DNA of 47,603 bases from Gammaproteobacteria bacterium. GTDB lineage: Bacteria > Pseudomonadota > Gammaproteobacteria > Steroidobacterales > Steroidobacteraceae. Of this stretch, positions 32,091 to 47,603 are shown piece after piece. The first letter of the stretch is position 1. Every line of letters begins with the position of its first letter. The notes below the pieces were generated by a model. The model was not told the origin of the DNA. It saw nothing but the letters and a program-made list of their open reading frames with translations, and did not search any database. The position numbers and the translations under genes were made by a program. The DNA is taken from assembly GCA_027307325.1 (NCBI GenBank), contig DAHUXE010000031.1, forward strand, positions 1 through 47,603. The letters are read 5' to 3'.

Positions 32091-32648
32091 ATGCCCGAGC
32101 CTCAGGCCGCTGCGGAAACCGCCACGGCGTCACACCCGGCGCCCTCAAGCTCGCGCATGGTGGCGAGCTACCTCACCGATGTGGAGCAACTCCTCGAGGC
32201 GCAACGCTGGGACGCGGCGCTCTGCGAGGCCTACGATCTGCCGCGCATTGCCGTCGCGCTGACCGACCCGACGCTGCAGAGCTCGGGCGAGCAGCAGAAG
32301 ACCTGGTGCGAGCAGTGGATCCGGCCCGCCGCCGATGAGCACGCGAGCGACGACCACGACTACGAGCAGGTCTGTCGCGCCGTATGCGAGCACATCGAGC
32401 ACCAGGAGGCCGCCGGGCCGAAGTCGATTCCGGCACGCGCTCTGCGCCGGCTGCGTTTGCGCCGCCACGTGCGCACCGCACCACGAGGCTTCTTTCACGA
32501 GCCCAACCCCGCCGACGATCCGGAGGCGGGCGAAAGCGCGCGGATTTGTGCGGCCCTCGTCGATGCCGCCCGCCGCTGGTACGCGCGCAGCGCGTGCCAC
32601 AATACGATCGTGCAGGCGAATCTCGCCAAGCTCGCCGTTCTGCGCTGA
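32091..32648 (+). CDS. Hypothetical protein cotranscribed with the histone-like gene
   Basis: A 185-residue soluble protein I do not recognise. It begins with a disordered Ala/Ser/Thr stretch. A mostly helical region follows, with VASYLTDVEQLLEAQRWDAA, LCEAYDLPRIAVALTDPTLQ and SGEQQKTWCEQWIRPAADEH. A basic middle segment (PARALRRLRLRRHVR) and a final helix (RICAALVDAARRWYARSACH) complete it. It has no signal peptide or membrane helix. The four-base gap from the H1-like gene suggests a functional pair; a role with nucleoid structure is only a guess from context. Confidence 0.7.
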   Translation: MPEPQAAAETATASHPAPSSSRMVASYLTDVEQLLEAQRWDAALCEAYDLPRIAVALTDPTLQSSGEQQKTWCEQWIRPAADEHASDDHDYEQVCRAVCEHIEHQEAAGPKSIPARALRRLRLRRHVRTAPRGFFHEPNPADDPEAGESARICAALVDAARRWYARSACHNTIVQANLAKLAVLR

Positions 32649-32903
32649 AGAACCCGCAAGCGGGTCACCTGAAGACTAAGGCCGCGGCTCCGCTTCCGGG
32701 GCACGCCGCCGGCCGTTGCACCGGTCGGCGCTACCCCCTGAATACCTGTTCAATGCACTGCATGCCAGCGGATCGATGGGGTATCGCTATCCGATTTGGT
32801 GCATATCTTTATGTTTGCTAAAGAACTTCTCGCGATACTGCATGCTCTTGCTTCCCAAAAGAGCTTGGCGGAAGATAACTGAGAAAGGGAGGGGGGAAGT
32901 CGA
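32649..32903. promoter_or_regulatory. Intergenic region upstream of the GlxA/GbdR-like regulator
   Basis: Contains no supported gene. Its second half (about 32750-32890) is clearly AT-richer than the surroundings and should carry the regulator promoter. A partial BetI-type box lies at 32737-32754, a GCTCTT/AAGAGC hairpin at 32844-32864, and a purine-rich ribosome-binding stretch (GGGAGGGGGGAAG) at 32887-32899 just before the TTG start. Confidence 0.55.
32737..32754 (+). promoter_or_regulatory. Partial copy of the shared ATTGA-N8-TCAAT box
   Basis: CCTGA-ATACCTGT-TCAAT keeps the exact right half and three of five bases of the left half at the same eight-base spacing. The ten bases CTGTTCAATG are identical to the right side of the box at the betI-betB start. 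It lies about 150 bases before the regulator gene, possibly an auxiliary operator. Confidence 0.4.
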
Positions 32904-32920
32904 TTGAGTGAGCGTTCAAT
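32903..32920 (+). promoter_or_regulatory. Shared operator over the start codon of the GlxA/GbdR-like gene
   Basis: ATTGA-GTGAGCGT-TCAAT is an inverted repeat identical in arms and spacing to the site at the start of the betI-betB fusion. In both genes the TTG start codon lies inside the left arm and an in-frame ATG starts at the end of the right arm. The likely binder is the BetI half of the fusion protein, because BetI-type operators are built from TTGA/TCAA arms. Confidence 0.65.
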
Positions 32921-33971
32921 GACGCACTCAAGCGGGTTTCAGCGCGCGGCTGCGACGGAGCGCGGCGCCCGCCCGCCCCTGCGGGTCGGCGTCATCCTGG
33001 CCCAACACTTCACTCTCTCCGCATTCGCGGTGTTCATCGACCACCTGCGGCTCGCGGCGGACGAAGGCGACCGCAGCCGCCCGCTGCACGTGCAATGGTC
33101 GATCATGGCGAGTCGCGCGGAATCGGTGCCGGCCAGCTGCGGCGTGTCGCTCGAGCCGACCAGCGGCTTCCTGTCACCCGACTCCCTCGACTACGTGGTG
33201 GTGATCGGTGGCATCCTCCACGCAGGTCCCCAGGTCGATGAAGCGACCATGCGCTACCTGCGCGAAGTCAGCTCGACCAACGTGCCGCTGATCGGTATCT
33301 GCACCGGCAGCTTCGTGCTGTGCCGCGCGGGCCTGATGAAGGGACGGCGCTCCTGCGTCAGCTGGTATCACTACCAGGATTTTCTCGAGGCCTTCCCCAC
33401 CCACGACGTCATCGCCGACCGGCTGTTCCTGGTCGACGGATTGCGCATCACCTGCGCCGGCGGCGCCGGGGCTGCGGCGCTCGCCACGTTCCTAATCGAG
33501 CAGCATCTGGGCCGCGCGCTCGCGCAGAAGGCGAGCCAGGTGCTGCTGTTCGATCGCCCGCGCTCCGGCAGCGAAGCCCAGCCCCATCCGCCCATGTCGG
33601 AGGTGGTGACCGAGCCGCGCGTGCGCCGCGCGCTGCTGCTCATGGAACAGAACCTCGCGCGCCCCATTGCCATCGCGGCGGTCGCCGCCGAACTCGGGCT
33701 CTCCGCCCGCCAGCTCGAGAGGCTGTGCCGGCAGCACGTCGGCATGGGGCCCGCCTCGCTCTACCGCCAGCTGCGCATGCGCTACGCCAACTGGCTCATC
33801 GAGAACACCGACCGCTCGGTCACCGACATCGCCAACGAGGCGGGCTTCGCGGACTGCGCGCACTTCTCGCGCCAGTTCAAGGATGCCTACGGCCTCTCGC
33901 CCTCGACCCGGCGCCTGCAGCCGCAGCGTGCCGGCAACGGCGATGCCGCGCGCGCCCGGGTATTCGAATAG
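32904..33971 (+). CDS. GlxA-family (DJ-1/PfpI plus AraC HTH) regulator, GbdR/CdhR-like
   Basis: A transcriptional regulator of 355 residues. The TTG start at 32904 is preferred because a GGGAGGGGGGAAG stretch lies just before it; an ATG at 32919 has none in range. Residues about 27-210 form an amidotransferase-like sensor domain (GVILAQHFTLSAFAVFIDHL, PLIGICTGSFVLCRAGLMKG, RITCAGGAGAAALATFLIEQ). Residues about 235-335 are an AraC helix-turn-helix pair (AAVAAELGLSARQLERLCRQ, SVTDIANEAGFADCAHFSRQ). Architecture matches GbdR and CdhR, activators of glycine-betaine and carnitine catabolism, and the surrounding bet and sox genes fit that role. Regulation by the fused BetI is suggested by the operator over its start codon. 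Confidence 0.87.
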   Translation: MSERSMTHSSGFQRAAATERGARPPLRVGVILAQHFTLSAFAVFIDHLRLAADEGDRSRPLHVQWSIMASRAESVPASCGVSLEPTSGFLSPDSLDYVVVIGGILHAGPQVDEATMRYLREVSSTNVPLIGICTGSFVLCRAGLMKGRRSCVSWYHYQDFLEAFPTHDVIADRLFLVDGLRITCAGGAGAAALATFLIEQHLGRALAQKASQVLLFDRPRSGSEAQPHPPMSEVVTEPRVRRALLLMEQNLARPIAIAAVAAELGLSARQLERLCRQHVGMGPASLYRQLRMRYANWLIENTDRSVTDIANEAGFADCAHFSRQFKDAYGLSPSTRRLQPQRAGNGDAARARVFE

Positions 33972-36945: not shown

Positions 36946-38931
36946 GTGTCGGCAGTAGAGCTCGAGGTACGGCGCATCCGCGAACTCGTGAAGGAACGCG
37001 AGCTCGCGCCGGCGTTGGCCGCTACCGCGGCGCTGCTCGCCGCGGTGCCCGAGAATCGCGATGCCCTCTACCTGCGGGCACGCGCACAGCGTCTCTCGGG
37101 TGCCACGGCAGCGGCACTCGCTACCCTCACCGAGCTCGAGCGGCTCTACCCGCGCTTCAGCCGGCTGCACGAGGAGCGGGGCCTGTGCCACGTGGTGCTA
37201 AAGGAGGCGCCGCAGGCGATCGGCGCGCTGCTCAAGGCAGTGAACATCAACCCGGCGCTGCCGGCGAGCTGGAGCATGCTCGAGGGCCTCTACCGGATGA
37301 CCGGGCAGGCCGCCAACGCCGCCGCGGCTGCGGCCCACGTCGCAACGCTGAAGCAGCTGCCTCCCGAGGTGGTCGCCGCGACCGCGCTGTTCTCCGACGG
37401 CGAGCTGGCCCCAGCGGAGGAGTTGATTCGCGCCTTCCTCCTGAAGAACGGCCACCAGGTCGAGGCCATGCGCCTGCTGGCCCGCATCGGCACCGAGCGC
37501 GAGGTGCTCGATGATGCGCAGCTGCTGCTCGAGGGCGTACTCGACCTCGCACCGGACTACCACGCCGCGCGCGCCGACTATGTGCGCGTCCTGAACGAGC
37601 GCCACCTGTACCGCGAGGCCCAGCAGCAGGCGCTCAAGCTATTCGCCGCCGATCGCGCCAATCGCGACTTCCGCATACTGCTCGCGCTCACCTGCGTGGG
37701 CCTCGGCCAGCACGAGCGCGCGATCGGCCTGTACCGCGAGCTGCTATCGGGCGCAACGCAGCGCGAGGACCTTCACCTCTCGATCGCCCACTCCCTGAAG
37801 ACCCTGGGTCGCACCGCGGGCGCGATCGCCGAGTATCGGGCCGCCGCGAACGCCCGCCCCGACTTCGGCGACGCGTACTGGAGCCTCGCCAACCTCAAAA
37901 CCTACCGCTTTGAGGAGCGGGAGGTCGCGGCGATGCGTGCCGCGGAGGCGAGCCCAGCGACCCCGGCGGTCGACCGCTACCACCTCTGCTTCGCGCTCGG
38001 CAAGGCGCTCGAGGACCGCGAGCAGTTCGCGGAATCCTTCCGCTACTACGAGCGCGGCAACGCCCTCAAGCGCGCCGCCGGCCGCTACCGGCCGGAGCTC
38101 CTCGAGCTCAACACCCGCCGGCAGATCGAGGTGTGCACCTCAGAGCTGTTCGCGCGCCGCGCGGGCGCCGGCGCGCCCGCGGCCGACCCGATCTTCATCG
38201 TCGGATTGCCGCGCTCGGGCTCGACGCTCATCGAGCAAATCCTCGCGTCACACTCAGGGGTCGAGGGCACCCACGAGCTCGCCGACCTTCCACGTATCGT
38301 GGCGGAGCTTCCGGGGCGGGAGGCAAGCACCGACGAGTCGCGCTATCCGGCGATGCTCGCGCAGTTGAGCGGCGACGATTTCCGCCGCCTCGGCGAGAAG
38401 TACCTCGCCGACACGCGCGCGTACCGCACCGGCAGGCCACACTTCATCGACAAGATGCCGAACAACTTCCGCCATATCGGCCTAATCCATCTGATGCTGC
38501 CGCAGGCCACAATCATCGACGCACGGCGCGAACCGATGGCCTGCTGCTTCGGCAATCTCAAGCAGCTGTTCGCCAAGGGCCAGGAGTTCACTTACGGCAT
38601 CGAAGACATCGCGCGTTACTACCGCACCTACCTCGAGCTCATGCGCCATTGGGACGCGGTACTGCCGGGCCGCGTGCTGCGCGTACAGCATGAGGACCTG
38701 GTGGATGACCTCGAAGGCAACGTGCGGCGCATTCTCGAGCACTGCGGGCTCGCCTTCGAGCCCAGCTGCGTCGAGTTCTACAAGACCGAGCGCAGCGTAC
38801 GCACCGCGAGCTCCGAGCAGGTCCGCCAGCCGATCTATCGCGAAGGGCTCGACCAGTGGCGGCATTACGAGCCGTGGCTCGAGCCGCTGCGCACGGCACT
38901 CGGGGATGCGCTGACGCGCTACCGCGACTGA
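36946..38931 (+). CDS. TPR-repeat sulfotransferase
   Basis: A 661-residue cytoplasmic protein. Residues about 1-400 are tetratricopeptide repeats (for example AALYRARAQ-type helices and DYHAARADYVRVLNERHLYR). The C-terminal part is a PAPS-dependent sulfotransferase domain (Sulfotransfer_3): the 5'-phosphosulfate loop is VGLPRSGSTLIEQIL (Pro422-Thr427), the 3'-phosphate region is IIDARREPMACCFGNLKQLF, and DKMPNNFRHIGLIHLMLPQA lies between. The acceptor is unknown; protein or small-molecule sulfation are both possible. The GTG start has AGGGG only one base away, so the true start is uncertain. TonB receptor plus TPR-sulfotransferase pairs recur in related bacteria as far as I recall. It converges on betA with 8 bases between. 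Confidence 0.88.
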   Translation: MSAVELEVRRIRELVKERELAPALAATAALLAAVPENRDALYLRARAQRLSGATAAALATLTELERLYPRFSRLHEERGLCHVVLKEAPQAIGALLKAVNINPALPASWSMLEGLYRMTGQAANAAAAAAHVATLKQLPPEVVAATALFSDGELAPAEELIRAFLLKNGHQVEAMRLLARIGTEREVLDDAQLLLEGVLDLAPDYHAARADYVRVLNERHLYREAQQQALKLFAADRANRDFRILLALTCVGLGQHERAIGLYRELLSGATQREDLHLSIAHSLKTLGRTAGAIAEYRAAANARPDFGDAYWSLANLKTYRFEEREVAAMRAAEASPATPAVDRYHLCFALGKALEDREQFAESFRYYERGNALKRAAGRYRPELLELNTRRQIEVCTSELFARRAGAGAPAADPIFIVGLPRSGSTLIEQILASHSGVEGTHELADLPRIVAELPGREASTDESRYPAMLAQLSGDDFRRLGEKYLADTRAYRTGRPHFIDKMPNNFRHIGLIHLMLPQATIIDARREPMACCFGNLKQLFAKGQEFTYGIEDIARYYRTYLELMRHWDAVLPGRVLRVQHEDLVDDLEGNVRRILEHCGLAFEPSCVEFYKTERSVRTASSEQVRQPIYREGLDQWRHYEPWLEPLRTALGDALTRYRD

Positions 38932-38939
38932 GCGCGCCC

Positions 38940-40601
38940 CTAGCGCTGCGTGCTCTCCCAGGCCGGCGCGACGTAGTACGGCGCCGCCGAGGGCGGCAAT
39001 AGCGTGCGGCCACGGATGTGGTCGGCGGCTTTTTCCGCCAGCATGATGGTCGGTGCGTTGAGGTTTCCGGTCGTCACCGAGGGCATGATCGAGGAGTCCA
39101 CCACGCGCAGCGCCTGTGTGCCGATGACGCGCGCCTGCGCGTCGACGACCGCGAGCGGGTCCGATGCCCGGCCCATCCTGCAGGTACCGCACGGATGGAA
39201 GGCGCTCTCGACCTTGGCGCGAATGAAGGCGTCGATCTCGGAATCGCTCTGCACGTTCTCCCCGGGCTGGATTTCCCGGCTGCGGTAGCCGGCGAAGGCC
39301 GGCTGCGCAAAGATCTCGCGCGTCAGGTGCACGCAGGCGCGCATCTCGGTCCAGTCCTCGGGCTGCGACATGTAGTTGAAGAACACGCGCGGCTGCTCGA
39401 GAGGCTCCGCGGACCTGAGACGCACCCAGCCCCTGCTGCGCGAGCGCATGGGTCCCACGTGCGCCTGAAAGCCGTGCTCGCGCGCCAGCGATGAGCCGTC
39501 GTAGCTCACCGCCATCGGCAGGAAGTGGAACTGAATGTCCGGGTAGCGCACGCCGGCGCGGCTGCGGATGAAGCCGCCGGTCTCGAAGTGATTGGAAACG
39601 CCGAGCCCGTCATGACGCAGCAGCCAGCGCAGACCGATGAGCGCCTTGCGGTAAGGGTTCATCTGCGAATAGAGCGTAATGGGCAGGCGGCAGGCAACCT
39701 GAAAGTAGAACTCGAGGTGATCCTGCAGGTTCTCGCCGACGCCGGGGAGCTCGTGCACGACGCTGATGCCGTGCGCCGCGAGCTCGGCCCGCGGGCCCAG
39801 CCCTGAGAGCTTGAGCAGCTGGGGCGAGTTCACGGGACCGGCGCAAATGAGCACTTCGCGCCGTACCAGCACGTCGTGCAGCGTCGCGCCGCGGCGGTAG
39901 CGCACGCCGCTGGCGCGCCGCCCGTCGAAGAGAATCCGTGTCGCGAGTGCATGGGTGCGCACGCTCAGGTTGGTGCGGTGCATGGCCGGCCGCAGATAGG
40001 CATTCGCCGTGCTGCAGCGCCGGCCGTCACCGACCGTCATCTCGAAAAAGCCGAAGCCCTCCTGCTGGAAACCGTTCACGTCCGCCGTCGAGGGGTAACC
40101 GGCCTGCCGCGCGGCCTCGAGCCAGGCGGCGTGCAGGGGGTTCTCGAGGAGGCCGCGCCGGGTGGCGAGCGGACCGTCGCCGCCGCGGTAGTCGTCGCCA
40201 CCACCGGCATGGCTTTCGGCACGCCTGAAGTACGGCAGGACGTCGCGGTAGCTCCAGCCCGCCGCTCCCTCGCTTTCCCAGCGCTCGAAGTCGAGCGCAT
40301 TGCCGCGCATGTACACCATGCCGTTGATCGAGGAGGAGCCGCCCAGCACCTTGCCGCGCGGCGTGTGCAGGCGGCGGCCGTTCAGCTGCGGCTCGCTCTC
40401 GGTGTGATAGCCCCAGTCGTACTTCGGCATGTTCATCGGAATCGACAACGCGCTCGGCATCTGGATCCACACCGAGCGATCCGAGCCGCCGTACTCGAGC
40501 AGCAGCACCTGGTCGCGTCCATCCTCGGTGAGACGGTCGGCGAGCACGCAGCCCGCGGAGCCCGCGCCGACGATCACGTAGTCGACGGTTTCCTGCGCCA
40601 T
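38940..40601 (-). CDS. betA: Choline dehydrogenase (GMC oxidoreductase)
   Basis: FAD enzyme oxidising choline to betaine aldehyde (and possibly on to betaine) at the inner membrane. It has 553 residues, the standard BetA length. The FAD fold is VIVGAGSAGCVLADRLTEDG. GMC signatures are RGKVLGGSSSINGMVYMRGN and GPVNSPQLLKLSGLGP. The active-site His is in FHPCGTCRMG and the late Asn in TTGNLNAPTIMLAEKAADHI. It starts 11 bases after the betI-betB stop on the same strand, so the two form one operon, matching the betIBA order of many proteobacteria except that betI and betB are one gene. The related GMC alcohol dehydrogenases are the main alternative, made unlikely by context. Confidence 0.92.
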   Translation of the reverse strand: MAQETVDYVIVGAGSAGCVLADRLTEDGRDQVLLLEYGGSDRSVWIQMPSALSIPMNMPKYDWGYHTESEPQLNGRRLHTPRGKVLGGSSSINGMVYMRGNALDFERWESEGAAGWSYRDVLPYFRRAESHAGGGDDYRGGDGPLATRRGLLENPLHAAWLEAARQAGYPSTADVNGFQQEGFGFFEMTVGDGRRCSTANAYLRPAMHRTNLSVRTHALATRILFDGRRASGVRYRRGATLHDVLVRREVLICAGPVNSPQLLKLSGLGPRAELAAHGISVVHELPGVGENLQDHLEFYFQVACRLPITLYSQMNPYRKALIGLRWLLRHDGLGVSNHFETGGFIRSRAGVRYPDIQFHFLPMAVSYDGSSLAREHGFQAHVGPMRSRSRGWVRLRSAEPLEQPRVFFNYMSQPEDWTEMRACVHLTREIFAQPAFAGYRSREIQPGENVQSDSEIDAFIRAKVESAFHPCGTCRMGRASDPLAVVDAQARVIGTQALRVVDSSIMPSVTTGNLNAPTIMLAEKAADHIRGRTLLPPSAAPYYVAPAWESTQR

Positions 40602-40612
40602 CAGCGCGCCCG

Positions 40613-42703
40613 TCAGTAGGGCGACTCGACGTCGCTCAGGGCGACGTAGACGCTCTTCAGCTGCGTGTAGTGCTCGATCGCGGCCCGGCCGTTCTCGCGC
40701 CCGAGCCCCGACATCTTCACGCCGCCGAAGGGCAGCTCGATGGGAGTCACGTTGTAGTGATTGATCCAGCAGGTGCCGGCCTGCAGCCGGGCGATCACGC
40801 GGTGGGCGCGCGTGAGATCGCTGGTGAAGACGCCGGCCGCAAGGCCGAACTCGGTGGCGTTGGCCCGCGCGACCACCTCGTCCTCTTCGCTGAACTCCAG
40901 CACCGACATGACCGGCCCGAAGATCTCGCGCCGCACGATGTCCATGTCGTCGTGGCAGAGGTCGAACACGGTCGGCGCGACGAAACAGCCGCGCGCCAGC
41001 TCACCGCTCGTCACGCGCGCGCCACCCGTGACGAGGCGTGCGCCCTGCGCCCGGCCGCGCGCGATGAACCCGAGCACCTTCTCCATGTGCTCCGCGGAGA
41101 TCAGCGAGCCGACCTGGGTGCGCGGGTCGAGGGGATCGCCGATGCGCATGGCTGCGGCGCGCTCGCGCAGCCGCTCGACGAAGGCCGCGCGCACGCTCCT
41201 GTGCACGAACACCCGTGTGCCGTTCGAGCACACCTCGCCGGCGGAATAGAAGTTTCCGAGCAGCGCCCCGGCGACCGCGTTGTCGATCTTCGCGTCTCCG
41301 AACACGATCAGCGGGGACTTGCCGCCGAGCTCGAGCGTCACCTGCTTGAGGGTCGCCGCGGCATCGGCCATCACGGCCTTGCCGGTACCGACCTCGCCGG
41401 TGAGCGAGATCTTGCGGATGCCGCGGTGGCGGCTGAGGAGGCGCCCGGTCTCGGCGCGGCCCTGCACCACCTGAAAAACCCCCTCCGGCAGGCCGGCGGC
41501 CGCGAAGATCTCGCGCAAGCGCAAGGCCGTGAGCGGCGTGAGCTCCGAGGGCTTGAAGATCATGGCGTTGCCGCAGGCGAGCGCCGGCGCGCTCTTCCAG
41601 CAGGCAATCTGCAGCGGGTAGTTCCAGGCGCCGATTCCGGCGACGACGCCGAGCGGCTCGCGCCGCGTGTAGCCGAAGGCCTTCGGTCCCAGGTCGAGAT
41701 GCTCGCCCGCAAGTCCTGCGGCGATACCTGCGTAGTACTCGAGGCAATCGGCGCCCGAGAGCACGTCGACCGCTGCGGTCTCCTGGATGGGCTTGCCGGT
41801 GTTGCGCGTCTCGAGCTCGGCGAGCTCGGCGTTCTGCGCGCGCAGCATCTGCGCCGCGCGCTGCAGCACGCGCCCACGCTCCGCTCCGGTGAGCGCCGCC
41901 CAGTCCCGCTGCGCCGCGAGCGCCCTCTCCACCGCCGCATCGACCTGCGTGGCCCCGTCGGCCGCAAACTCCGCGAGCTGCTCGCCGGTGGCGGGATTCA
42001 CCACCGTGAAGGTCCCCGGCACTTTGAACGTGCCCGACTCGCCCGCCGCAGCCGTGCCCGGCGCTTGAGAGGACTGCGGTGTCCCCTGCCGCGCGAGGTC
42101 GCGCAGACGTCCGTCGACGAATGCCGTGAGCAGCGCGCGCGCACTGCCACTGTCGGCCTCCTGCCATTGCGAGAGCGCGGCGCGCAGCCACACGCCGTCG
42201 ATCATCGCCGCGATCATGGCGGCGAGCGTGCGCGCGTCCTCGCCGGGAATCACGCTGCGCAGGTCGCCGCGCAGGTTCGACAACATGCGCCGCTGATACG
42301 CCGTCTGCACCCTCTTCAGTCCGTCGAAATGCAGCACCTGGCCCCAGAAAGCGAGCCAGGCGTTGCCGGTGCGCCTGTCGAAATTCTCCGGCCCGAGATT
42401 GGCATCGATGACCGCCTGCACGCGCGCACGCGGCGTGCGCGCGAGCGCGAACTGCTCGCGCATGCGCACCGCCACCACGCGGGCGAGCGCGCGGAAGGCG
42501 GCCTCGAGGAGGCCCTCCTTGTCGCCGAAGTAATGCGCCACGAGTCCCGGGGAAACCCCGGCCCGGCCGGCGATTTCGGCGAGCGTCGTATCGACGAAGC
42601 CGACTTCGGCGAGACTGTCGATGGTCACCTCGATGAGCTGGGCGCGCCGGGCCTCTTCCAGCTCATCCCGCGGTACGGCAGCGGACATTGACTGTCTGTT
42701 CAA
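40613..42703 (-). CDS. BetI-BetB fusion: TetR-type repressor joined to betaine aldehyde dehydrogenase
   Basis: One uninterrupted 696-residue frame. Residues 1-203 are a full-length BetI-like repressor: helix-turn-helix at about 39-60 (TTLAEIAGRAGVSPGLVAHY then FGDKEGLLEAAF) and the BetI ligand domain with GNAWLAFWGQ and IAAMIDGVWLRAAL. A Gly/Ala/Ser/Thr-rich linker (about 204-230) leads to betaine aldehyde dehydrogenase (231-696): TRREPLGVVAGIGAWNYPLQ, FKPSELTPLTALRL, catalytic Glu458 in LELGGKSP, catalytic Cys492 in GEVCSNGTRVFV, and the C-terminal PFGGVKMSGLGRENG. Only the usual first beta-strand of BetB is missing, replaced by the linker. A TTG start has GGAG seven bases upstream; an ATG 15 bases later (42688) is the alternative. 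It would convert betaine aldehyde to glycine betaine and repress its own operon. An internal GTG start for the enzyme alone (about residue 228) cannot be excluded. Confidence 0.93.
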   Translation of the reverse strand: MNRQSMSAAVPRDELEEARRAQLIEVTIDSLAEVGFVDTTLAEIAGRAGVSPGLVAHYFGDKEGLLEAAFRALARVVAVRMREQFALARTPRARVQAVIDANLGPENFDRRTGNAWLAFWGQVLHFDGLKRVQTAYQRRMLSNLRGDLRSVIPGEDARTLAAMIAAMIDGVWLRAALSQWQEADSGSARALLTAFVDGRLRDLARQGTPQSSQAPGTAAAGESGTFKVPGTFTVVNPATGEQLAEFAADGATQVDAAVERALAAQRDWAALTGAERGRVLQRAAQMLRAQNAELAELETRNTGKPIQETAAVDVLSGADCLEYYAGIAAGLAGEHLDLGPKAFGYTRREPLGVVAGIGAWNYPLQIACWKSAPALACGNAMIFKPSELTPLTALRLREIFAAAGLPEGVFQVVQGRAETGRLLSRHRGIRKISLTGEVGTGKAVMADAAATLKQVTLELGGKSPLIVFGDAKIDNAVAGALLGNFYSAGEVCSNGTRVFVHRSVRAAFVERLRERAAAMRIGDPLDPRTQVGSLISAEHMEKVLGFIARGRAQGARLVTGGARVTSGELARGCFVAPTVFDLCHDDMDIVRREIFGPVMSVLEFSEEDEVVARANATEFGLAAGVFTSDLTRAHRVIARLQAGTCWINHYNVTPIELPFGGVKMSGLGRENGRAAIEHYTQLKSVYVALSDVESPY

Positions 42704-42704
42704 T
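42687..42704 (-). promoter_or_regulatory. Operator over the betI-betB start codon
   Basis: In the gene sense the site reads ATTGA-ACAGACAG-TCAAT, a five-base inverted repeat with eight-base centre. The TTG start lies in the first arm and the alternative ATG at the end of the second. The arms and spacing are identical to the box at 32903-32920. This position would let the BetI half shut off its own expression. Confidence 0.65.
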
Positions 42705-42811
42705 GTGCGACTCCATCGGGCTCGCCCCGAGGGCGGGGAAACGGACGGTGACGCCTGGTCTGCCCGGGAGTCACTGCGAGGCGGTTCAGTGACTTACCCA
42801 GGTTATGGCAC

Positions 42812-42843
42812 TTGACACGTGGATGATTAAACGGCTATTCAAG
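42812..42843 (+). promoter_or_regulatory. Permease promoter with BetI-like box
   Basis: A perfect -35 hexamer TTGACA (42812-42817) is followed by ATTAA-ACGGCTAT-TCAAG (42826-42843), which keeps eight of ten arm bases of the shared box at the same spacing and sits where a -10 element should be (candidate TATTCA, weak). The region lies between divergent betI-betB and permease genes, so one repressor could control both directions. Confidence 0.45.
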
Positions 42844-42934
42844 CCTCGAGGGGGATCATGAAGTGGGCTGCCCGCTTCGGTCAAGTGCACCGCCGCGTCG
42901 ATGAAGAATCCCGACATCGCCCGAGGACAACCGC

Positions 42935-44470
42935 GTGGTTGAGAACAAGACTGACGACAGCGGCATGGAGCACTTCGGCTACCGCGAGTCGCTCGCCCGC
43001 AGCATCGGTGCCTTCGGCAGCTTCGCGGCCGGCGTGAGCTACATCTCGATACTCACCGGCACATTCCAGCTCTTCTACTTCGGCTTCGGCACCGCCGGGC
43101 CCGCGTATCTGTGGTCCTGGCCGATGGTGCTCGTCGGTCAGCTGGCGGTCGCCCTGTGCTTCATGGAGCTGTCGGCCAAATATCCGATAGCGGGCTCGGT
43201 CTACAACTGGTCGAAGCTCCTCGGCAGCCAGATCGTGGGCTGGTCTTCGGGCTGGCTGATGCTCACTGCATCGATCGTCACGCTGTCGGCGGTGGTGCTC
43301 GCGCTGCAACTCAACCTGCCGCGCCTCTGGAGCGGCTTCCAGATCATCGGCGACGGCCGTGGCACCTACGATTTCGCCACGAACGCGGTGATCCTCGGCA
43401 CGGTGCTGATCGTGTTCACCACCGTCGTCAATGCGCTCGGCGTGCGCTGGATGGCGATGATCAACAGTGCGGGCGTCTTCATAGAGCTGATCGCGGCCTG
43501 CCTGATCGCAATCTTCCTCGCCTTCAACCTGAGGCGTGGTCCCCAGGTCTTCTTCTCCATCGGCGGCTACGGCTCCGGCGGCGGCTCGGGCTATCTCGGC
43601 GACTTCCTGGTGGCGTCGCTGGCTTCCGGATACGTCATGTACGGCTTCGACACTGCGAGCTCGCTCGGTGAGGAGACGCTCGAGCCGCGGCGCACCGCTC
43701 CCCGGGCGATCCTGCGGGCCATCCTCGCCTCGTTCGTCATCGGTGGCGCAATCCTGGTGTTCGCGATCCTGGCGGCGCCCGATTTACGCGATCCGATGAT
43801 CGGCAGCAGCAACGGCGGGCTGCAGTACATCGTCGAGCAGGTGATGTGGGGTCCGCTCGGCAAGATATTCCTGGTATGCATCGTGGTCGCGGTGACGGTG
43901 TGCTCGCTCGCCGTGCACACCGCGGCCATCCGCCTGGCCTTCGCCATGGCGCGCGACAACGCGCTGCCGTTCGGGGAAAGGCTGGCGCGGGTGAATTCCG
44001 CGACTCAGACTCCGATCGTTCCTGCCGTAGTGATCGGCGTGATCGCCGAAGCGATCCTGGTCCTCAACATCGGGCAACCGAAGATCTTCACGGTGCTGAC
44101 CTCGATTGCGGTCATCATGATCTACCTAGCTTACCTGGTGGTCACCGGCGCAATGCTGAAGAAGCGCCTGGCCGGGGCATGGCCGCCGGCGGATCTCGCC
44201 GCGGGCCGCTACTTCACCATGGGCAGCGCCGGTATGCTCGTCAACGTGGTCGCGGTGCTGTGGGGCGCGGGGATGGCGATCAACCTGGCCTGGCCGCGCG
44301 AGGCCGTGTACGGCGCACCCTGGTGCAACACCTGGGGAGCGTTCGTGTATATCACCGCGATCCTCGGAGCGGGGCTCGTCTGGTACGCCATCACCGGCCG
44401 TCATCATGTCGGCACGCTGGCATCACACACGCTGACCGCAGGCGACGGCTCACTGCAACCGCAAGCCTGA
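42935..44470 (+). CDS. APC-superfamily permease, probably for choline, betaine or a related amine
   Basis: Inner-membrane transporter of 511 residues with about twelve hydrophobic helices. The first helix block RSIGAFGSFAAGVSYISILT and the AKYPIAGSVYNWSKLLGSQI loop are the amino acid/choline transporter pattern of the APC superfamily. SLASGYVMYGFDTASSLGEE, followed by PRRTAPRAIL, matches the conserved helix 6 region. The GTG start has GAGGA seven bases upstream; an ATG at 42965 lacks one. It is divergent from betI-betB and followed by soxBDA after 113 bases, so import of a methylated amine is the likely job; the exact substrate is inferred from context. Confidence 0.86.
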   Translation: MVENKTDDSGMEHFGYRESLARSIGAFGSFAAGVSYISILTGTFQLFYFGFGTAGPAYLWSWPMVLVGQLAVALCFMELSAKYPIAGSVYNWSKLLGSQIVGWSSGWLMLTASIVTLSAVVLALQLNLPRLWSGFQIIGDGRGTYDFATNAVILGTVLIVFTTVVNALGVRWMAMINSAGVFIELIAACLIAIFLAFNLRRGPQVFFSIGGYGSGGGSGYLGDFLVASLASGYVMYGFDTASSLGEETLEPRRTAPRAILRAILASFVIGGAILVFAILAAPDLRDPMIGSSNGGLQYIVEQVMWGPLGKIFLVCIVVAVTVCSLAVHTAAIRLAFAMARDNALPFGERLARVNSATQTPIVPAVVIGVIAEAILVLNIGQPKIFTVLTSIAVIMIYLAYLVVTGAMLKKRLAGAWPPADLAAGRYFTMGSAGMLVNVVAVLWGAGMAINLAWPREAVYGAPWCNTWGAFVYITAILGAGLVWYAITGRHHVGTLASHTLTAGDGSLQPQA

Positions 44471-44583: not shown

Positions 44584-45834
44584 ATGACACCCTTCTCCGC
44601 GCTGTCGCTGCTGCGCATGGGGCTGAGTGGCCAGCGCGGCTGGAAGCCGCAGTGGCGCAGCCCCGAGCCCAAGGGCGCCTACGACGTGGTCATCGTCGGC
44701 GGAGGCGGTCACGGTCTCGGCACCGCCTACTACCTCGCGCGCGAGCACGGGCTCACCAACATCGCGGTGCTGGAAAAAGGCTGGATCGGCGGCGGCAATA
44801 CCGGACGCAACACGACGATCATCCGCTCCAACTACCTGTTCGCCGAGAGCGCGGCGCTCTACGACCACGCGCTCAAGCTGTGGGAAGGCCTGTCGCAGGC
44901 CCTCAATTACAACACGATGTTCTCGCAGCGCGGCGTCATGCTGCTCGCCCACACGGTGCACGACGCACAGGTGGCGAAGCGCCACGTGCACGCCAACCGC
45001 GCCGCCGGCGTCGACAACGAGTGGCTCACGCCACGCGAGGCCCAGGCCTTCTGCCCGCCTCTGAAGATTGACGACATCCGCTATCCGGTGCTCGGCGCGG
45101 CGCTGCAGCGGCGCGGCGGCACCGCGCGGCACGACGCGGTGGCCTGGGGCTACGCGCGCGCCGCCGACGCGCTCGGCGTCGACATCATCGAGAACTGTGA
45201 AGTCACCGGCATCCGTCTCGACCCGCACGGCGCCGTCACAGCGCTCGAGACCACGCGCGGCCCCATCCGCACGCAGCGCCTCGGCGTGGTCGCCGCCGGC
45301 CATACCAGCGTCATCATGAGAATGGCCGGCGTTGCACTGCCGCTCGAGAGCTACCCGCTGCAGGCGCTGGTATCGGAGCCCGTGAAGCCGGTGTTCCCGT
45401 GTGTCGTCATGTCGAACACCATCCATGCCTACATCAGCCAGTCCGACAAGGGCGAGCTCGTCATCGGCGCCGGCACGGATGCCTACACCTCCTACACCCA
45501 GCGCGGCGCGCTCCATATCCCGAGCCATGCGCTCGAGGCGATCTGCGAGCTGTTCCCGACGTTTCGCCGCCTGCGCATGCTGCGCAACTGGGGCGGTATC
45601 GTCGACGTGTCGCCGGACCGCTCACCGATCATCGGCAGGACGCCGGTGCCGGGGCTCTACGTAAACTGCGGCTGGGGCACCGGTGGCTTCAAGGCGACGC
45701 CGGGCTCGGCGCACCTGTTCGCCTGGACCATGGCGCACGACGCGCCGCACCCGATCAACGCGCCGTTCAGCCTCGAGCGCTTCCGCGACGGCAACCTGAT
45801 CGATGAAGCCGCGGCGGCCGCCGTGGCTCACTGA
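44584..45834 (+). CDS. soxB: Sarcosine oxidase beta subunit
   Basis: Catalytic subunit of heterotetrameric sarcosine oxidase, demethylating sarcosine to glycine with FAD and covalent FMN. It has 416 residues, the usual length. The FAD fold is [20 protein letters not shown], followed by [39 protein letters not shown] holds the His (about 183) expected to carry FMN covalently. The late block [20 protein letters not shown], followed by [13 protein letters not shown], is also a family marker. No good ribosome binding site precedes the ATG. It is the first of soxB-soxD-soxA; the gamma subunit (soxG) would be expected beyond the window edge. Confidence 0.96.
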
Positions 45835-45842
45835 AAGCTCCC

Positions 45843-46151
45843 ATGCTGCTCATCCAGTGCCCGTGGTGCGGCGAGCGTCCCGAGCCCGAGTTCGTCTACG
45901 GCGGGCAGGCGCATATCGCGCGCCCGCCGCGTCCGGCAGACGCGAGCATCGAGGAATGGACGAATTACCTCTACCACCGCGACAACACCCGCGGCGTGCA
46001 TGCCGAGCGCTGGCGGCACACCCACGGGTGCGGACGCTTCTTCAACGCGCTGCGCGACACCACCACCGACCGGTTCATCGCGACTTACCGCGTGGGTGAG
46101 CGGCCGCCGCAGGCGCCGGCCGGCCCGGCAGTGAAGGCGGCCCGCCCATGA
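45843..46151 (+). CDS. soxD: Sarcosine oxidase delta subunit
   Basis: Small zinc-binding subunit of tetrameric sarcosine oxidase. It has 102 residues, normal for the family. The zinc ligands are visible as CPWCGERPEPEF at the start and HTHGCGRFFNALRDTTTDRF later. EEWTNYLYHRDNTRGVHAER is the conserved centre. It starts 8 bases after soxB and overlaps soxA by four bases (ATGA), so the three genes are translated together. Confidence 0.96.
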   Translation: MLLIQCPWCGERPEPEFVYGGQAHIARPPRPADASIEEWTNYLYHRDNTRGVHAERWRHTHGCGRFFNALRDTTTDRFIATYRVGERPPQAPAGPAVKAARP

Positions 46152-47603
46152 CAGGGGAGCTGCGCACACCGATCGGCGGGCGCATCGACCGCGCGCGTGC
46201 GCTCAACTTCCGCTTCGACGGCCGCGCCTATCGCGGTCTCGCGGGCGACACGCTCGCCTCGGCGCTGCTCGCCAACGGTGTGCATCTCCTCGGCCGTTCC
46301 TTCAAGTACCACCGGCCGCGGGGGCTGCTAGCCGCGGGCGCCGAGGAGCCGAGTGCGCTCGTCACGGTACGGCGTGATGCCGCACGCTGCACCCCGAATC
46401 TGCGCGCCACGCAGCTCGAGCTCTACGAGGGGCTCGAGGCCTTCAGCCAGAACCGCTGGCCCGCCCTCGCCTTCGACCTCGGCGCCGTCAACGATCTGCT
46501 CGCACCCTTCATTCCCGCCGGCTTCTACTACAAAACCTTCATGTGGCCGCGCAGTGCGTGGCAGTGGCTGTACGAGCCGCGCATCCGCGCGGCGGCCGGG
46601 CTCGGACGCGCCCCGCAGCACGCCGATCCGGACCGCTACACGAGCCGTTTCGCGCACTGCGACGTGCTGGTGGTCGGCGCCGGCCCGGCCGGGCTCGCCG
46701 CGGCGCATGCCGCCGCTGCCGCCGGTGCACGCGTCGTCCTGTGCGACGAGCAGAACGAACCCGGCGGCTCGCTGCTCTGCGACCCGGCCTGGGACGATGC
46801 CTCGCTGGAGGGGCGGCCGGCAGGGCTGTGGCTGCACGAGACCGCCGGCGCCCTCGGTCGCAACCCGCGCGTTACGCTTCTCACCCGCACGACCGCCTTC
46901 GGCTATTTCCCGCACAACCTCGTCGGGCTGTCACAGCGCCTCACCGACCATCTCGCCTCTCCCCACCCCGGGGCACCACGCGAGCGGCAGTGGCAGGTGC
47001 GTGCCCGCGAAGTCGTGCTGGCAACCGGCGCCATCGAGCGGCCGCTGGTGTTTCCCGGCAACGACCGGCCGGGAATCATGCTGGCCGACGCGGCGCGCAC
47101 CTGGCTCAACCGTTATGGCGTCGTGCCCGGCACGCGCGCCGTCGTGGTGACGGCCTGCGACGCCGCGTACCGCGCGGCGCTCGACCTGAAGCGTGCCGGC
47201 GTCGACATCGCGTGCATTGCGGACGTACGTACCGGCGGCGAGGGGAGCTGGGCGCAGCGGGCCCGCGAGGCGGGCCTCGCGGTGCGCTCCGGGGTCACCG
47301 TGCTCGGCACCCGCGGGCGGCGACGCGTCGCGAGCATCGAGCTCGCGCGGCTCGAGTCGGGCCGGGTGGTCGAAGGCGGCATGCAGCCCTGCGATCTGGT
47401 CCTGATGTCGGGCGGGCTCACTCCGAGCGTGCACCTGCACTCGCAATCGCGCGGCAAACTCGTCTGGGACGAGAGCCTGCAGGCGTTCCTGCCGGCCGAG
47501 CCGGCCGAGCGCTCGCGCAGCGCCGGCGCCTGCCGCGGAATCTTTGCGCTCGATGCGGCCTTCGCCGACGGCGCCGCCGCCGGCGCCGCCGCGGCCCGCG
47601 ACG
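46148..47603 (+). CDS. soxA: Sarcosine oxidase alpha subunit, cut by the window edge
   Basis: Large subunit of sarcosine oxidase, binding NAD and tetrahydrofolate. The 485 visible residues are about half of the usual length near 1000. The N-terminal domain has LAGDTLASALLANGVHLLGR, SFKYHRPRGLL and FYYKTFMWPRSAWQWLYEPR, typical of SoxA. The dinucleotide fold is DVLVVGAGPAGLAAAHAAA, with EVVLATGAIERPLVFPGNDR and the late CDLVLMSGGLTPSVHLHSQS. The frame is open to the last base. The tetrahydrofolate-binding C-terminal half lies outside the window. Confidence 0.95.
   Translation, partial: MTGELRTPIGGRIDRARALNFRFDGRAYRGLAGDTLASALLANGVHLLGRSFKYHRPRGLLAAGAEEPSALVTVRRDAARCTPNLRATQLELYEGLEAFSQNRWPALAFDLGAVNDLLAPFIPAGFYYKTFMWPRSAWQWLYEPRIRAAAGLGRAPQHADPDRYTSRFAHCDVLVVGAGPAGLAAAHAAAAAGARVVLCDEQNEPGGSLLCDPAWDDASLEGRPAGLWLHETAGALGRNPRVTLLTRTTAFGYFPHNLVGLSQRLTDHLASPHPGAPRERQWQVRAREVVLATGAIERPLVFPGNDRPGIMLADAARTWLNRYGVVPGTRAVVVTACDAAYRAALDLKRAGVDIACIADVRTGGEGSWAQRAREAGLAVRSGVTVLGTRGRRRVASIELARLESGRVVEGGMQPCDLVLMSGGLTPSVHLHSQSRGKLVWDESLQAFLPAEPAERSRSAGACRGIFALDAAFADGAAAGAAAARD

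Follow-up and report, generated by a model that had tools for sequence, protein, structure and literature searches.

The betIB locus and its product

The window (the whole 47.6-kb stretch of DNA that was analysed) contains a gene, betIB, in which a BetI-type repressor and a betaine aldehyde dehydrogenase (BADH) are encoded in one frame. It is followed by betA, and a GbdR-like regulator gene, a permease gene and genes for sarcosine oxidase lie in the same window. The features are listed in Table 1.

Table 1. Coordinates of genes, protein segments and predicted control elements in the window
Feature	Position	Strand	Details
betIB fusion gene	40613..42703	-	696 aa; putative TTG start codon (42703) and stop codon (40613-40615); orthologues also found
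BetI half, residues 1-206	42086..42703	-	TetR HTH and BetI-type C-terminal domain; Pfam, NCBIfam, AlphaFold2 helices 12-206, pN/pS
Linker, about residues 207-229	42017..42085	-	disordered, fast-evolving; pLDDT, pN/pS, motif scan
BADH half, residues 230-696	40613..42016	-	catalytic Glu458 and Cys492; profile and structure matches
betA, choline dehydrogenase	38940..40601	-	TIGR01810 over cut-off
Proximal BetI box	42686..42705	.	matrix score 21.6; overlaps TTG start codon
Distal BetI box	42825..42844	.	score 13.8; centre 139 bp upstream of proximal box
Promoter-like match TTGACC-18-CATGAT	42855..42884	-	just upstream of distal box; consensus match only
GbdR-like AraC/DJ-1 regulator gene	32904..33971	+	best NCBIfam model GbdR, 185 bits, cut-off 480
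BetI box over TTG start codon of GbdR-like gene	32902..32921	.	score 22.0
Second, weaker box at GbdR-like gene	32736..32755	.	score 12.5; 166 bp upstream
ORF before GbdR-like gene	32091-32648	co-oriented	no NCBIfam match
Amino-acid/urea-carboxylase-type permease, divergent	42935..44470	+	profile matches
soxB, soxD, soxA-like (sarcosine oxidase)	44584..47602	+	soxA runs off window

An earlier note on this DNA had described a single 696-residue frame joining BetI to a nearly complete BADH, with catalytic Glu458 and Cys492 intact and betA 11 bases downstream, and the analysis bears out each of these points. The frame is uninterrupted (computed mass 74.5 kDa) and carries three Pfam domains: TetR_N at residues 23-69 (45.6 bits, cut-off 24), the BetI-type TetR_C_6 at 91-200 (88 bits, cut-off 27) and Aldedh at 231-685 (over cut-off). 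The gap to betA measures 11 bp. The BetI half passes the NCBIfam model NF001978 (189.5 bits, cut-off 118) and is 4 bits under the cut-off of TIGR03384 (197.3, cut-off 201.3). The BADH half passes NF009725 (763.9 bits, cut-off 593) and is 17 bits short for TIGR01804 (651.5, cut-off 668.6), with model positions 1-13 of 467 unmatched. Glu458 and Cys492, together with Asn361 and Lys384, are invariant in 82/82 aligned fused proteins, as are five residues of the HTH region.

The BADH half resembles BetB of P. aeruginosa (2wme) and Agrobacterium (3r31), with 56-57% identity over 464-470 alignment columns and the catalytic residues kept. Unlike in these enzymes, the counterpart of the first 21 residues of the best solved BADHs is missing: alignments of NF009725 and of the solved BADHs, which are its nearest relatives of known structure, to the window protein begin at their residue 22, so the BADH N-terminus is absent. 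A regular expression for the strand β1 motif of BADH, which misses β1 in at least three other loci (L093, L099 and L102), found none in the window linker.

An AlphaFold2 monomer model made with 54 fused sequences as input has two well-folded parts (mean pLDDT 84.6, pTM 0.64), joined by a linker of about 24 residues. The helix before the linker ends at residue 206, and the strand after it begins at 231. Disorder is predicted at 209-227 (pLDDT <50) and, in the C-terminal part, at 644-647 and 654-680, so the placement of the two halves relative to each other is undefined in the model. In a fold search the 50 matches listed, of 1638, are all aldehyde-dehydrogenase-fold entries and concern the BADH half only.

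The putative start codon of betIB is a TTG supplied by the proximal box, 7 bp after a GGAG. This start is supported by comparison of the fused loci: the box TTG and the HTH share a reading frame in 28/30, at ten different distances ranging from 57 to 87 nt (the 30 are fused loci classed as lacking β1 by the regular expression and having an exact box no more than 90 nt from the HTH anchor; the exceptions are L071 and L093).

Spread, integrity and history of the fusion

The same two-domain order, which the earlier note had proposed looking for in related genomes, is found widely. The fused frame is open in 80/80 of the best-scoring loci from other records (the best 80 of at least 563 confirmed candidates, so that the figure gives no frequency; three of them, L075, L100 and L119, are truncated by the contig end). 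These 80 loci come from Steroidobacteraceae and other gammaproteobacterial MAGs, from Caulobacterales MAGs and from isolates; isolates with the fusion belong to Ancylobacter, Bosea, Kaistia, Aureimonas, Azorhizobium, Methylobrevis and Acidocella. In genome searches whose cut-offs could miss a distant fused copy, a stop-free frame across both halves is present in 57/217 Steroidobacteraceae genomes (matches kept below 1e-150; 56 are full length and one, G013, is cut at the contig end). With the same proviso, the full-length fusion is present in 12/297 genomes of the order of Ancylobacter (below 1e-170) and 3/385 genomes spread over the Alphaproteobacteria (below 1e-185), and likewise in 1/369 genomes spread over the Gammaproteobacteria (below 1e-160), this being the window's own genome. 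One further fused frame (G061:C117:3617-5311) has a single internal TGA and a match that ends at residue 574, through frameshift, decay or an assembly fault.

The window's genome is a draft of 199 contigs, in which a sequencing or assembly error might have joined two genes. However, assemblies made independently of each other show the same fusion, as do isolates from several genera, and the linker frame is preserved while the linker sequence diverges. These fused orthologues refute an assembly artefact, to which we give a negligible chance. Two of the grounds on which the earlier note would have abandoned the fusion, a sequencing error and the want of any fused relative, are excluded.

Plasmids of Komagataeibacter saccharivorans also carry the fusion. 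The protein is annotated there solely as betB, which shows that annotation can miss betI. Acidiphilium is given as betBA without betI in a table of PMC7824335 and may have a hidden BetI-BADH fusion; it is not among the 15 records listed of 139 plasmid records.

Comparison of 12 close pairs gives pN/pS values of 0 to 0.19 (HTH), 0.05-0.26 (BetI), 0.05-0.21 (BADH) and 0.42-0.83 (linker). These ratios indicate that both halves are under purifying selection. A degenerate BetI half is ruled out for the sequences seen by the HTH values and by the HTH-region residues invariant in 82/82 proteins. When the window's genome was searched for another BetI orthologue, five TetR_C_6 matches were obtained, the next best of which has 37% identity across the BetI half, and this candidate was rejected.

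The earlier note had also allowed for separate internal translation of the two halves. In the window this appears unlikely, as the linker offers no in-frame candidates beyond three GTG codons, all of them lacking a Shine-Dalgarno match. Among the fused loci in general, one gene might still give two functional proteins by proteolysis or by internal initiation in the linker, and loci that keep β1 often have an in-frame linker ATG (23/32, vs 4/50 of those without β1) from which a second product may arise. When ATGs are counted 24-33 codons ahead of reference position 236, a range close to the former start of betB, 18/32 loci with β1 and 5/50 without have one (in short-linker loci this range extends beyond the linker window used for the preceding counts). 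However, the linker ATG has a Shine-Dalgarno-like match in only 4/82 loci, and a scan of the linkers of 82 fused loci found no conserved internal start for BADH. The GTG codons of the window, its lack of a β1 motif and the absence of stops in the 80 best-scoring relatives likewise argue against two products, and we regard this explanation as very unlikely.

The history of the fusion was examined with a two-domain tree of fused and adjacent separate loci only (110 rows, thinned from 135; quick method, SH-aLRT support, rooted on Enterobacterales) and a BADH-only tree (thinned set of 105). The two-domain tree needs two changes between fused and separate, a number that cannot by itself separate gain from loss. 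We read it as one fusion inside the Alphaproteobacteria, found later in the Steroidobacteraceae, and one re-split in the Steroidobacteraceae (G127 and G132). The Steroidobacteraceae genes are placed among alphaproteobacterial ones, which suggests horizontal transfer. In the re-split loci betB begins at the same shortened N-terminus as in the fused relatives; an AAGGTAA element and a GTG or TTG codon precede it, and this fits fission. The Komagataeibacter copy lies outside the fused clade in the BADH-only tree and inside it in the two-domain tree, on a long branch in both, and its independent origin is left open.

In the BADH-only tree, genes for betB alone lie beside fused ones (L144 by L092; L156-L158 by L159), so that BetI has been lost at least twice. 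Of 16 betB-only genomes of the family that were searched, some of them incomplete drafts, 15 have no BetI match at 1e-20 and one (G149) has a 36% match. Seventeen Steroidobacteraceae betB genes (L141 and L143-L158) have no betI nearby, and 14/17 also have no box within 700 nt; repressor and operator therefore seem to have been lost together.

Separate genes were seen in two other settings. In eight alphaproteobacterial loci (L182, L183, L186 and L210-L214) betI and betB are in the same frame and parted by a single stop codon, or by two in the case of L213; by sequence these loci are one or two changes short of fusion. Two records named Acinetobacter phage MD-2021a (CAKLQF020000014.1 and CAKLQH020000010.1), possibly bacterial sequence, have separate betI and betB.

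BetI boxes at betIB and at a GbdR-like gene

The box that the earlier note had placed at 42687-42704 is real: its pattern, TTGAACNNNCNNTCAA, occurs three times in the 2.98-Mb genome and the reversed-pattern control does not occur. The third exact copy is at L198 (G000 contig 54, 18075-18090). A TTGA-N(4-10)-TCAA palindrome is present upstream in 52/80 fused loci that have 150 nt or more of upstream sequence, where 1.2 are expected from shuffles.

Using a symmetrised matrix, at least one box was found within 420 bp in 94/94 fused loci with enough upstream DNA. At least two boxes are present in 82/94 fused loci, in 4/41 adjacent separate betI-betB pairs and in 0/46 betB-only loci; 12/94 fused loci have one box, as do the re-split pairs (two loci), and 39/46 betB-only loci have none. 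A single box is the usual state of separate pairs. Two fused loci with less than 400 nt upstream and L225, in which betI and betB lie apart and have no box, were left out. Some genomes appear twice among the 94 (at least five: L162, L164, L166, L170 and L171), and we therefore give thinned counts as well. Loci with at least two boxes then number 65/72 fused vs 3/38 separate at 92% identity, 46/52 vs 3/36 at 85%, and 24/28 vs 3/32 at 80%.

As the original matrix was built from fused loci, it was rebuilt from unfused loci only; the contrast between fused and separate loci holds with this matrix and at thresholds from 5 to 11. The background inside genes is no more than 0.011 matches per 430 nt. 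Since the tree has two changes, the independent contrasts number two; they have the same direction in 1.7/2 on average and are never opposite. A simple p-value would be too small because the rows are related.

Of the fused loci with exactly two boxes (n=77), 62 have a spacing of 130-190 bp and 15 lie outside this range. In an alignment of 15 upstream regions, the two boxes, a CAT(G/C)AT element and a GGAG-like stretch stand out in diverged sequence, and the CAT(G/C)AT element lies 9-12 nt before the TTGAA of the distal box in 14/15, the window included. There is no helical phasing of the two box distances overall (R=0.19, p=0.91, n=45). For subsets of related rows, R, computed without a significance test, is about 0.35 in 28 early loci and 0.59 near 10.6 bp in 17 later loci, most of which are alphaproteobacterial. 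Four of the nine loci of the unfused sister clade (L172-L180) carry a second box, at a distance of 175-339 bp, which suggests that box doubling may predate the fusion.

At a matrix score of at least 7 there are exactly four boxes in the whole window, namely the pairs at betIB (42686/42825) and at the GbdR-like gene (32736/32902). An orthologue of the GbdR-like gene is found in 12/40 genomes searched, the window's included; 11 of these have the full fused frame, and one (G017) has it in two pieces on different contigs. The box at the start codon is present in 12/12 orthologues and a second box, 151-166 bp away, in 9/12, the other 3/12 being without it. A paralogue (L266) has no box. These observations suggest that the GbdR-like gene is a second target of the fused repressor. 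Because the preceding ORF is co-oriented, the pair at this gene serves no divergent promoter in the window. A second predicted target, the paired-operator signature and the wide distribution of the fusion all go beyond the earlier note.

With soxB, soxD and a soxA-like gene also present, the genes of this region appear to form a choline-to-glycine pathway with common control. A TPR-sulfotransferase gene (36946-38931) adjoins betA in the window, with a TonB receptor nearby. A Komagataeibacter plasmid also has a TPR-sulfotransferase gene (L139:1-929), at a distance of 5 kb from the fusion and again with a TonB receptor nearby. A link of the sulfotransferase to choline sulfate is possible.

A predicted repressor-enzyme and its relation to known systems

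The fused protein is probably a single-chain, choline-responsive autogenous repressor-enzyme. Autogenous control had been claimed in the earlier note, and an intact, constrained HTH together with BetI boxes at the gene's own start supports it. The BetI half would dimerise and bind the boxes found where betIB-betA and the GbdR-like gene begin, choline would loosen or alter its hold on DNA, and the BADH half would oxidise betaine aldehyde to glycine betaine, a protective compound. Repression and the response to choline are proposed by analogy with BetI elsewhere, which represses betIBA and is relieved by choline (PMC7876524). Repressor and enzyme would be made 1:1, so the repressor should accumulate on induction and help to shut the operon once choline is gone.

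BADHs are tetramers and TetR proteins are dimers. Each assembly should therefore have two dimers able to bind DNA, both held by long flexible tethers; the BADH tetramer would make the repressor multivalent, and two dimers per assembly would suit paired boxes that are mostly 130-190 bp apart. We tentatively propose that the BADH tetramer is the scaffold of a bivalent, DNA-bridging repressor whose operators were doubled at betIB and at the GbdR-like gene and of which the re-split loci lost one. The doubling of boxes with the fusion, the loss upon re-split and the pair at the GbdR-like gene speak for bridging; the missing helical phasing, the fused loci with one box, the second boxes of the sister clade and the divergent neighbours speak against it. 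Phasing would be weakened by a long floppy tether, although this argument only excuses the result and is no evidence for bridging.

The paired boxes could also be used separately by an autogenous repressor-enzyme that does not bridge, the fusion only fixing the 1:1 ratio. The distal box would then block the promoter or the divergent gene, and the proximal box would act as a roadblock or block the start codon. The promoter-like match just upstream of the distal box and the lack of phasing (n=45, p=0.91) are in keeping with this, as is the orientation of the upstream neighbours, which are mostly divergent. Orientation was called from GC periodicity, which is rough (a longest-ORF call disagreed at some loci, such as L069 and L074, and was not used for counts). 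By this call the neighbour is divergent in 74/82 fused loci with at least two boxes, so some distal boxes may serve the divergent gene. However, among loci called divergent, at least two boxes are present in 74/83 fused loci, whereas unfused loci have mostly one (two in 4/25). Moreover, 4/4 fused loci called co-oriented have at least two boxes (rough calls, with L083 and L119 close relatives), and the GbdR-like gene has its pair despite a co-oriented preceding ORF. Separate use of the boxes is thus a possibility that we would put forward only with reserve.

Among self-repressing enzymes PutA is the example usually given, and it and the BetI-BADH fusion have separate origins. Few enzymes are known to include a complete, ligand-sensing repressor for the operon that encodes them. 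PutA is a catabolic dehydrogenase with an N-terminal DNA-binding domain and represses its own regulon or operon (PMC5293562). The fusion is like PutA in being a catabolic dehydrogenase that carries an N-terminal DNA-binding part. Unlike PutA, which combines a ribbon-helix-helix domain with proline dehydrogenase and P5C dehydrogenase, it has only TetR_N, TetR_C_6 and Aldedh; its DNA-binding part is of another family with its own ligand-type domain, and there is no proline dehydrogenase.

The parallel with the trifunctional architecture of PutA (PMC5293562) and the intact catalytic residues of the enzyme would agree with a PutA-like trigger enzyme, as proposed in the earlier note, in which betaine aldehyde or NAD(H) in the BADH half alters DNA binding by the BetI half. 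However, the linker is disordered in the model, weakly constrained and of varying length (22-48 residues from reference position 200 to 236 of the aligned fused proteins), which suggests that it would relay a conformational change poorly, and the BetI half retains its own conserved C-terminal domain. We consider such a trigger unlikely, and the choline-responsive repressor-enzyme remains the reading that we favour.

The repressor half resembles BetI, the TetR-family repressor of betIBA in E. coli and others, in having TetR_N and TetR_C_6 and a score over the NF001978 cut-off, and its box has the same form as TATTGAACGTCCAATCAATA, which precedes betI in E. coli (record L194). It differs from BetI in that the protein continues in frame into BADH and that the boxes are usually paired. 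In Ruegeria pomeroyi the two BetI2 boxes described in PMC12442346 overlap each other, unlike those of the fused loci. In the open-access papers searched, a BetI-BetB fusion was nowhere described; where PMC7824335 uses 'fused' together with gene names, the genes are for methyltransferases. Repression of an operon by its own enzyme is known from PutA, and the BetI-BADH version appears to be new and is built from other families.

If the paired boxes are bridged, this would show that the quaternary structure of an enzyme can be recruited for gene control. The fusion has one apparent origin and many descendants, cultured strains among them, with one re-split and at least two losses of the repressor, so the effect of fusion on regulation is open to comparative testing.
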